DNA from: Calditrichales bacterium MX18-03
Lineage (GTDB): Bacteria; Bacillota; Clostridia; Lutisporales; Lutisporaceae
Assembly: GCA_021083345.1 (NCBI GenBank)
Contig: JAJGRE010000003.1
Location: forward strand, 310,001 to 374,000
DNA length: 64,000 nt
Reading direction: 5' to 3'
Below are positions 12,261 to 14,744 of this stretch, one piece after another; positions within the stretch are counted from its first letter, which is position 1; each line of letters starts with the position of its first letter. The translations under genes and the position numbers were made by a program. Under the pieces are notes generated by a model. That model was not told the DNA's origin. It worked only from the letters and a program-made list of their open reading frames with translations, and searched no databases.

Positions 12261-12262
12261 AA

Positions 12263-12306
12263 GCATCATAAAAGCATGCGCAGTAAAGCGCATGCTTTTA
12301 TGATGC
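12263..12306. terminator. Bidirectional terminator between topB and a histidine kinase
   Basis: A perfect 19-bp stem (12263-12281 against 12288-12306) with loop AGTAAA and A/T-rich flanks lies between two convergent genes. The right arm contains the stop codon of the kinase gene (12298-12300), so that gene ends inside its own terminator. Confidence 0.9.
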
Positions 12307-13344
12307 CTGATAACTGAACCAGGCTGCAAACTCAAAGGTGCTGCCTTGGCCGGGCCGGCTCTCCACCCTGATTTTACCGCCCATTAATTCAACAATATTC
12401 TGGCTTATTGCCAAACCTAAGCCTGTTCCCCCGTATTTGCGCCGGTTGAAGCTGTCTACCTGGCTGAAGCTCTTAAAAAGCTTATCCAGATCCTGATCCG
12501 CAATCCCGATTCCCGTATCGCTGACTGAAAAACGCAGAAGAATCTTGTCTTCTTTCTTTTCGACAACCGATATATGAAGCCTTACAGCACCGGAATCGGT
12601 GAATTTGACAGCATTTCCGACGAGGTTCATTAATACCTGATTCAGTCGGTTAGAATCTCCCTGAAGCATATCCGGAATATCAGGGGCTTGCTCATAAACC
12701 AGGTTGATTTTTTTGTTCTCTACACCGACACGGAACAGACTGAAAATATTCCGAATCACCGTAGACAGACTGAAGCTATGGTTATCCAGCTGCATAGCCC
12801 CCAACTCGATCCTGGAAATATCCAGCATATCGTTTATAATATTCAGAAGCGATCTGGCCGAGTTTAATGCCAGTTCCATATATTCTTTCTGCTTATCGTC
12901 AATGTCTTCCGCCAGCATCAGCTGGATCATTCCCATAATCCCGTTCATTGGTGTTCTTATTTCATGGCTCATGTTTGCCAGGAATTTTGTTTTGGCGTTA
13001 TTGGCTTCCTCCAGTGATTTTTGTACTGCAACCAAGTCGGCCTCTATCCTTTTCCGCTCTTCTATTTCATTGACCAACCGGTTATTGACCTCTTCCAGGT
13101 TGTCGTTCCGCTTGATCAGAGCCTCCTGCAGCTGCTCCTTTTGCTTGTAGTCCTTCAAGATCAGTCCGTATATCAGAAGCGAGGTGGCCAATACAAACAG
13201 CCAGCCTTTGTAGGTCTGCATTCTGGTTACCAAATCCGGCTCATCAGCCAGCATCATGACTACACCATCAGACCAAATGATCCATATAACACTGAATACA
13301 AAGTATATCAGCGAGATTTTTATTGGCGGCTTCAGCTTTTCCAT
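12298..13344 (-). CDS. Membrane sensor histidine kinase
   Basis: A 348-residue kinase. Two membrane helices (about 9-28 and 48-66) with hardly any extracellular loop are followed by a coiled coil (about 68-118), a HisKA domain with phospho-His in FLANMSHEIRTPMNGIMGM, and a HATPase domain with N-box NLVGNAVKF, SDTGIGI, FSQVDSF and GTGLGLAIS. There is no receiver domain and no response regulator next to it, so it is an orphan kinase, possibly feeding a phosphorelay. The nearest upstream genes on this strand are a TPR protein and an exported peptide; in bacilli TPR Rap proteins act on phosphorelays, which makes the proximity suggestive only. The stop codon lies within the shared terminator. Confidence 0.85.
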   Translation of the reverse strand: MEKLKPPIKISLIYFVFSVIWIIWSDGVVMMLADEPDLVTRMQTYKGWLFVLATSLLIYGLILKDYKQKEQLQEALIKRNDNLEEVNNRLVNEIEERKRIEADLVAVQKSLEEANNAKTKFLANMSHEIRTPMNGIMGMIQLMLAEDIDDKQKEYMELALNSARSLLNIINDMLDISRIELGAMQLDNHSFSLSTVIRNIFSLFRVGVENKKINLVYEQAPDIPDMLQGDSNRLNQVLMNLVGNAVKFTDSGAVRLHISVVEKKEDKILLRFSVSDTGIGIADQDLDKLFKSFSQVDSFNRRKYGGTGLGLAISQNIVELMGGKIRVESRPGQGSTFEFAAWFSYQAS

Positions 13345-13428
13345 TGCTTTTACACCTCACAGGTTGCTTCATCTATGTCATATTTTAACAATAGCTCAGT
13401 TCCATTACAAATTCAATAGGTATCAAAA

Positions 13429-13475
13429 AGAAACATGCACCCCGGCCTCCTTGTGAGGCCATCGCGCATGTTTCT
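13429..13475 (-). terminator. Terminator after the exported-peptide gene
   Basis: On the minus strand AGAAACATGC pairs with GCATGTTTCT, enclosing a second stem GGCCTC/GAGGCC, and is followed by TTTTTG. It closes the TPR-peptide unit and separates it from the histidine kinase. Confidence 0.85.
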
Positions 13476-13499
13476 CCTGAGTACCGCCGCAATGTTATT

Positions 13500-13631
13500 T
13501 TATCTGCACTGAGAGGGCTTGGGTTCAATCACGATTCCCCGTGGATCGGTAATATCTGACGCGCCGGCTGAAATCAACCCGGTTCCCAGAACAGTTGCAA
13601 CAACCAGCATCAATATGAGTATCCTTTTCAT
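13500..13631 (-). CDS. Small exported peptide precursor (43 residues), candidate signal peptide gene
   Basis: ATG at 13629-13631 follows GGAGG at 8 bases and the frame ends at 13500. The product has a basic start (MKR), a hydrophobic core (ILILMLVVATVLGTGLIS), a likely signal-peptidase region (SAGAS) and a polar tail ending PRGIVIEPKPSQCR. This is the build of Phr/PapR-like precursors that are exported, cleaved and re-imported. It begins 18 bases after the stop of a TPR-repeat protein, the usual position of such peptides. No homologue is recognised by eye; it could also simply be a small secreted protein. Confidence 0.7.
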   Translation of the reverse strand: MKRILILMLVVATVLGTGLISAGASDITDPRGIVIEPKPSQCR

Positions 13632-13649
13632 GTTTTTTACCTCCTTCTA

Positions 13650-14744
13650 TCAATTTGTACTTAGAACACTCAAGGACAAACGGACTTCATCGAGACAAAT
13701 GTCCAGCTCTTGCCGGAACAGCTCGCTTGTCTCGCCTGCCGTCTGGAGCAAAAGCTTCAGCTCCTTCTCGAAATCAGTCAGCAGCTGCTTGTCCTTGTTG
13801 CATATTTTTTTGAAGATATAGAGTCCGTCAATGATATAGCTCTTGTATATGAAAAATTCCTTTACCTTACGCAAAAGGTCTAAGAGCTGGTAGATAATGT
13901 CGGTAGCTTCCCCCTGCAGGAGCTTGATTTCCGTATAGGTCTGAAAGCACATGAAAAAATATGCCATGTCTTTACATTCCAGATACTCAAAGGCCTTCAT
14001 GATATGCTTTATTGCCGCATCGTAATCGCCTTTAACCTTGTATAATTCCGCCATATTATTCAACGCACCGCACTTAAGGATCAGCTGAGTAGGCTCATAA
14101 AGGGATTCAGCCTTCTGATAACACGCAATGGCTTCTTCATAACGCTGAAGCCTCTTGTAATTGACACCCATGTTCAATACCGTACTCCCTTTGTCATGGG
14201 GGCTACGTGCCAGCTCCAGAGCTGTCTCCAGCATCTTCTGCGAAGCATCGTACTCCTTCAGATAACTTAGCAGAATGCCTGCACGGTAGTACAACAGAAA
14301 ATTGACGGGGTATCTGATGTTTCGGTTTAAGCGGTAGAGCCGCTGCGCTTCTTCAATATAATGCCGGGCTAATTGATACTGATAATCAAAAAAATGCAGA
14401 AGCCCCAAATCGGACAGGGAAGTGATCAGCATTTCGCCGGTTTTCCGCTTGCGGAAAAAATCAACGGCTTCGTTTATATACCGGTAAGCTTTGTCCTGCT
14501 GCTTATTGTAAAAATAATACATCCCCATATTGCGCTTCATCTTCGCCTGCTGGACCGGCAGTCCCTTTGCCTCACACCAATCCGTCACTTGCGTCAGAAG
14601 AATGATGTCTTCCGAGTTTTTATAGGCTTCGATATCCAATACAATATTGTCAACAAATGCAGCAAGAGTTCTTGCTGGAATCCTTTTAGGGTCGCGGACT
14701 GAAAAGACAAACGACCGCACCTTTTGCTTGCGCTGGACTTTCAC
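13650..14744 (-). CDS. TPR-repeat protein, candidate RRNPP/Rap-like peptide receptor
   Basis: A 364-residue helical protein with at least five tetratricopeptide-like repeats (for example KAYRYINEAVDFFRK, LARHYIEEAQRLYR, ASQKMLETALELAR, EAIACYQKAESLYE, AAIKHIMKAFEYLE). The N-terminal 70 residues are basic and helical, without an obvious HTH motif. Length and layout are like Rap phosphatases (about 375 residues). The start is taken as GTG at 14744, 8 bases after AGGAGG; longer readings run into a TATAAT at 14778-14783 that is better read as the -10 box. The exported peptide gene directly downstream supports a receptor-peptide pair. The target of the receptor is unknown. Confidence 0.7.
   Translation of the reverse strand: MKVQRKQKVRSFVFSVRDPKRIPARTLAAFVDNIVLDIEAYKNSEDIILLTQVTDWCEAKGLPVQQAKMKRNMGMYYFYNKQQDKAYRYINEAVDFFRKRKTGEMLITSLSDLGLLHFFDYQYQLARHYIEEAQRLYRLNRNIRYPVNFLLYYRAGILLSYLKEYDASQKMLETALELARSPHDKGSTVLNMGVNYKRLQRYEEAIACYQKAESLYEPTQLILKCGALNNMAELYKVKGDYDAAIKHIMKAFEYLECKDMAYFFMCFQTYTEIKLLQGEATDIIYQLLDLLRKVKEFFIYKSYIIDGLYIFKKICNKDKQLLTDFEKELKLLLQTAGETSELFRQELDICLDEVRLSLSVLSTN

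Follow-up and report, generated by a model that had tools for sequence, protein, structure and literature searches.

A candidate RRNPP-type peptide-signalling cassette with a TPR-only receptor in a clostridial genome

Described systems and layout of the locus

In RRNPP signalling, a peptide is exported, processed, re-imported via an oligopeptide permease, and bound in the groove of a TPR receptor. Published criteria for RRNPP(A) systems include an adjacent open reading frame (ORF) of 10–100 aa at −60 to 400 nt with a Shine-Dalgarno (SD) sequence, and RRNPP_detector yielded 34 clusters from complete genomes (PMC10075063). Residue N227 of RapF has been reported as strictly conserved across the RNPP superfamily and as indispensable for binding of the peptide (PMC3601957). 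The Qsp peptides have Leu, Pro, and Trp in common at their C-termini (PMC7376267), and RRNPPA subfamily 17 of Anoxybacter fermentans, in the nine-TPR clan B, is reported to be a second lineage besides Rap that has lost its HTH domain (PMC12700828).

We analysed a 64,000-nt stretch of contig JAJGRE010000003.1 (positions 310,001–374,000; hereafter the window) of Calditrichales bacterium MX18-03, a spore-forming member of the Clostridia. The window carries a two-gene unit on its minus strand. The receptor gene (13653..14744, stop codon 13650–13652) was assigned from its ORF, ribosome-binding site, Pfam TPR models, and a family alignment (A1). It starts with a GTG at 14744 downstream of an AGGAGG and runs to 13650, and its product of 364 aa falls inside the 250–500 aa range of RRNPP(A) receptors. 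Several Pfam TPR models matched the protein (TPR_12, E 6e-19), and no HTH model of Pfam or NCBIfam did. An HTH profile built from the paralogues was blank upstream of the gene in every frame, on which basis a frameshifted HTH was rejected; the predicted absence of an HTH was thus borne out. RapH_N (PF18801) was not found in the receptor even at E 10 and had no match anywhere in the window's genome, with a positive B. subtilis control, and Rap membership was rejected accordingly. A promoter scan performed no better than shuffles.

Exactly 18 nt after the receptor stop codon (13649–13632) lies an ORF of 43 aa (13500..13631, minus strand; ATG at 13631, stop at 13500), preceded by AGAAGGAGGTAAAAAAC with the SD sequence AAGGAGG. 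Its product, the putative pheromone precursor MKRILILMLVVATVLGTGLISAGA / SDITDPRGIVIEPKPSQCR (the slash marking the inferred cleavage site), has a basic start, a hydrophobic core (mean hydropathy 3.3), and an A-x-A-like site, and carries the motif D-x-x-D-P-x-G as SDITDPRGIVIEP directly after the predicted cleavage site. The assignment draws on its own SD sequence, the spacing, homologous ORFs, and this motif. Because the window peptide itself has no close relatives, it is by homology that the ORF appears to be coding. Judged from an alignment of 35 propeptides, the conserved stretch of the mature region is D-I-T-D-P-R-G-I-V-I-E-P, encoded by codons 13521..13556 (minus strand), which likely hold the pheromone. 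The original prediction drew the tail too short, as IVIEPKPSQCR, since the conserved mature part starts at DITDPRG.

The two-gene unit ends in an intrinsic terminator (13420..13482, minus strand), a hairpin followed by TTTTT with a stability of −34.8 kcal/mol (z −7.1; equally stable shuffles 0/200). The ORFs, SD sequence, and hairpin confirmed the predicted order of TPR gene, 18 bases, 43-residue gene, and terminator. A separate near-perfect hairpin with a 20-bp stem (12261–12308) lies where the topoisomerase and histidine kinase genes of the window converge and is likely a terminator common to both.

An AlphaFold model of the window receptor, built on a two-sequence alignment (window and L036), contained 18 helices that fit nine helix pairs, at a moderate pLDDT of 70. 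A fold search with this model returned RapI (Z 18.3), RapF (17.1), and NprR (16.6) among many TPR matches; as unrelated TPR proteins such as LGN matched equally well, the search does not distinguish Rap and NprR from TPR proteins in general and was not counted as evidence of membership. A receptor-family profile matched Rap structures (6t3h, E 5.5e-11; RapF, about 8e-10), though synthetic and eukaryotic TPR proteins scored equally or better. In the alignment, N191 of the window receptor corresponds to N226 of Rap3T (phage phi3T), the equivalent of RapF N227. An asparagine occupies this position in 37 of the 39 family receptors, and the window receptor also retains the other near-invariant positions of the family.

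Distribution of the family and its propeptides

The genome of the window (G000, 4.7 Mb) encodes two further receptors, G000:C7 and G000:C8, which are longer (about 425 aa) through an N-terminal extension and share 27–32% identity with the window receptor. Homologues were found in 6 of 22 related genomes at E 1e-15 and in 5 of 22 at 1e-30, all from the same bacterial family. In a class-wide sample, in which up to four candidates per genome were scored, 5 of 391 genomes had a homologue at 1e-30, none outside this family. A scan of genome contigs gave one true relative, in an uncultured Clostridia MAG and with the same receptor as G004:C72, and two generic TPR proteins. Single-protein scans of viral contigs and tblastn searches of phage records found no relative of the cassette, and a plasmid search gave weak generic TPR matches only, from cyanobacteria; there was therefore no sign of a phage- or plasmid-borne cassette. 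On sequence grounds, the receptor–peptide family is a clade-restricted subfamily of the RRNPP type. The largest repertoire was that of G004, a 4.7 Mb MAG, with 34 receptor matches that represent about 33 loci, one gene being broken in two, and at least 23 loci with a propeptide (e.g. L057–L077). This exceeds the 1–13 pairs per record in a published benchmark set and makes the MAG a good data set for decoding receptor–peptide specificity.

Propeptides were sought in the sequence after each receptor stop codon with a fixed test (30–80 aa, SD sequence, basic start, hydrophobic core, polar tail). Such an ORF followed 29 of the 36 receptors with enough downstream sequence, at a spacing of −17 to +55 nt (G000 2/3, G002 2/2, G008 0/1, G009 2/2, G004 23/28); one further receptor, cut by a contig end, was left out. 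As a control, the region from −60 to +60 nt was compared between receptor genes and other genes at the loci of the window and six relatives, where 6/7 receptor genes and 0/112 other genes passed, so that a small ORF after the receptor is more than chance.

The aligned propeptides (n = 35) had a conserved FA context at the cleavage site and then the motif D-x-x-D-P-x-G, flanked by variable residues; the proline was present in 33/35, the preceding aspartate in 29/35, the first aspartate in 24/35, and the glycine in 23/35. G002:C34 and G004:C210 have propeptides with an internal duplication of the motif, and tandem propeptide gene pairs occurred in six G004 cassettes. The second copies of these tandem genes varied in the motif (e.g. 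GDESDPWG, GNESDPWG). The pN/pS of closely related propeptide pairs, which are not independent of one another, was 0.37 (0.26 for the signal part, 0.44 for the tail), an indication that those ORFs are translated and under constraint. Receptor distance correlated with propeptide-tail distance (Mantel r 0.50; 0/5000 permutations), a correlation also expected from common ancestry that shows co-inheritance, not specificity. Within the window's own genome, the HTH-TPR receptor G000:C7 is followed by a 45-aa ORF that overlaps it by 4 nt and carries ...FA/GDHTDPHVIIVTP, a code shared with SDITDPRGIVIEP of the window; the predicted mature part of this peptide, GDHTDPHVIIVTPG, resembles SDITDPRGIVIEPK of the window.

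No recognisable signal-peptide ORF was found after G000:C8 or G008:C73, each with ample downstream sequence, and some family members may therefore be orphan receptors. A 39-aa, amphipathic-looking ORF with a good SD sequence, MIKRAAVILQKMIPWLGKAMGKMIEDIEPYDVLKYALHA (L002:1304–1423, minus strand), does lie 3′ of the HTH-bearing G000:C8, and it is absent at the orthologous G008 locus.

Probable loss of the HTH domain

Most members of the family bear an N-terminal HTH, and four of the 39 receptors lack it. In a maximum-likelihood tree of the 39 receptors, the HTH-less members fell into two groups: the window receptor with its closest relative G002:C34 (support 100/96), and G002:C22 with G008:C73 (100/100), the sister of the latter group being the HTH-bearing G000:C8 (100/98). 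Residues 23–61 of G000:C8 gave weak matches to phage regulator families, which supports an HTH, and in a structure model of an HTH-bearing relative the N-terminus was too weak to confirm the fold. The distribution of the HTH on the tree requires at least two changes. Since every other full-length member carries the domain, losses are more plausible than gains, although the root of the tree is not fixed. The HTH thus appears to have been lost at least two times separately, with the window gene descending from one of these losses. Next to the propeptide gene of G002:C34, on its 3′ side, a gene with an FRG domain was observed (L039:6509–7387, minus strand); FRG domains are found in some phage-defence proteins.

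The second group permits a comparison at a single locus. G000:C8, G002:C22, and G008:C73 are positional orthologues, each being followed by a DUF1003 gene, and G000:C8 and G002:C22 both come after the same aminopeptidase-like gene. G002:C22 and G008:C73 retain KLtaDNItvmSEhQQI, the leader seen in the HTH proteins, fused straight onto the TPR core, and the junction looks as if the sequence from one QQI-like site to another had been deleted in frame. The propeptide of G002:C22 (L040:8335–8484, plus strand) lacks DxxDP and contains VDDVGL twice, on both sides of IIKAKDTVIVKPM, which suggests that its peptide code may have changed after the HTH loss. A single locus that has the HTH in G000:C8 and lacks it in G002:C22 and G008:C73, together with another, independent loss on the window's branch, forms a natural comparison, and the transition from an RRNPP transcription factor to a protein-binding, Rap-like regulator becomes directly testable outside Bacillus.

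Proposed mechanism and comparison with known systems

The layout, the homology, the motif, the selection acting on relatives' small ORFs, the conserved asparagine, and the HTH loss were all computed here. The conservation of the cassettes, their D-x-x-D-P motif, the signs of purifying selection, the co-divergence, and the asparagine lend good support to the predicted pairing of an RRNPP-like receptor with an exported peptide. We consider it probable, at roughly 0.85, that the two window genes constitute an RRNPP-type peptide-signalling cassette, with an exported peptide and an intracellular TPR receptor that acts on a protein.

For this cassette, we infer export, processing, import, binding, a partner, and a phenotype along the following lines. 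The 43-aa precursor would be exported through Sec and cleaved after ...SAGA, and the liberated SDITDPRGIVIEPKPSQCR, or a smaller fragment around DITDPRG..IEP, would build up outside the cell. Uptake would proceed through oligopeptide permeases; the genome encodes five SBP_bac_5 proteins as well as Spo0A. Inside the cell, the peptide would dock on the concave TPR face via N191 and neighbouring residues. The receptor would derive from an HTH-TPR transcription factor whose HTH has since been lost, and it also lacks the Rap N-terminal bundle. As neither HTH nor RapH_N is present, its output would most likely be binding to another protein, a contact that the peptide would switch. Candidate partners are a signalling protein that feeds Spo0A, or an HTH-bearing paralogue.

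Pairing with a paralogue leads to an alternative that we regard as possible, though on balance unlikely, in which the TPR-only receptor pairs with its HTH-bearing paralogues or competes with them for peptide, as a dominant-negative form or a pheromone sink, and no kinase or response regulator is involved. The receptor and its paralogues share a TPR core, related peptide codes, and one genome, and the lack of both HTH and RapH_N fits such a role, but the identity to the two paralogues is low, as given above, and heterodimers or cross-binding are hypothetical.

It is rather doubtful that the receptor instead controls the neighbouring orphan kinase (12298..13344, minus strand; HisKA and HATPase_c by Pfam), and thereby Spo0A, in a Rap-like manner. 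This kinase lies 155 nt past the peptide gene, has no adjacent response regulator, and shares its genome with Spo0A; G000:C7 likewise has a HisKA kinase in its vicinity, a 713-aa hybrid (L043:4321–6462, plus strand) about 2.4 kb away as measured from HisKA to the receptor. Against this, the window kinase forms a separate unit beyond the strong terminator, and no HisKA kinase was found near G002:C34 or near most other receptor copies, so that a conserved histidine-kinase neighbour was rejected. With 53 HisKA matches per 4.7 Mb, one kinase neighbour is unremarkable, and one close neighbour among three receptors is estimated to arise by chance about once in ten. The kinase may thus stand next to the window cassette by chance, and the suggested link to it was not supported.

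We consider it improbable that the TPR protein represents a transcription factor in decay and that its cassette is being lost or only makes a cue for other receptors. Its HTH is gone, and the receptors G000:C8 and G008:C73 persist without a recognisable peptide; however, the 364-aa frame is intact with a good ribosome-binding site and a terminator, N191 and the other near-invariant positions are retained, and the TPR-only lineage is common to two genera, represented by the window and G002:C34, both of which keep receptor and peptide. That the small ORF, defined as it is by sequence features, encodes some other exported or membrane peptide, such as a toxin or leader peptide, is highly improbable given its fixed position behind one receptor family, its conserved and internally duplicated polar mature motif with cleavage-site-like residues, and its co-divergence with the receptor.

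Returning to a signalling cassette whose receptor acts on a protein, we tentatively propose, at less than even odds, that the DxxDPxG-code subfamily has repeatedly made TPR-only receptors with a new protein contact (paralogue pairing or kinase gating), and that the roughly 33 loci in one relative would be parallel private channels.

Among described systems, the locus resembles the RRNPP(A) superfamily (PMC10075063, PMC9765709) in its TPR receptor of 250–500 aa, adjacent ORF of 10–100 aa, SD sequence, and putative Sec-like signal, as well as in the conserved peptide-binding asparagine and the tandem and internal propeptide duplications. The window belongs to the DxxDP clade by receptor homology (alignment A1) and by its DxxDPxG propeptide, and differs from other RRNPP(A) systems in forming its own clade with this code and in having a TPR-only receptor. 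The original prediction had named Rap-Phr, NprR-NprX, and clostridial pairs as sharing this layout; the RRNPP-type arrangement stands, and assignment to Rap-Phr or Qsr-Qsp does not. Like Rap-Phr of Bacillus and its phages, the window has a receptor with a TPR core and no HTH followed by a predicted exported peptide, but this receptor lacks RapH_N, its family lost the HTH separately according to the tree, and the peptide code is another one. The overall fold class is that of NprR-NprX and AimR/AloR, nine-TPR receptors with an HTH, and the HTH-bearing paralogues have the same architecture, whereas the window receptor lacks the HTH and sequence identity is low. Qsr-Qsp of C. acetobutylicum (PMC7376267) and QssR of C. 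saccharoperbutylacetonicum (PMC7206700) similarly combine a clostridial receptor with a following exported peptide of 39–50 aa in several copies per genome. In contrast to Qsr, which has an Xre-type HTH, the window receptor has none; DxxDPxG opens the mature part here, and the tail ...IEPKPSQCR contains no Trp and does not have the Leu-Pro-Trp peptide end. By its description, subfamily 17 of Anoxybacter fermentans shares the HTH loss with this family, with which it might coincide.

HTH loss and a DP-containing code both have precedent. The clade's family, a mature region that opens with DxxDPxG, the loss of the HTH at least twice inside one family, and a repertoire as large as that of G004 appear to be new, judged by published descriptions; the family may already be present, undescribed, among the RRNPP_detector clusters. 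With this locus, quorum sensing in poorly studied Clostridia gains a receptor family and a peptide code that are specific to one clade.
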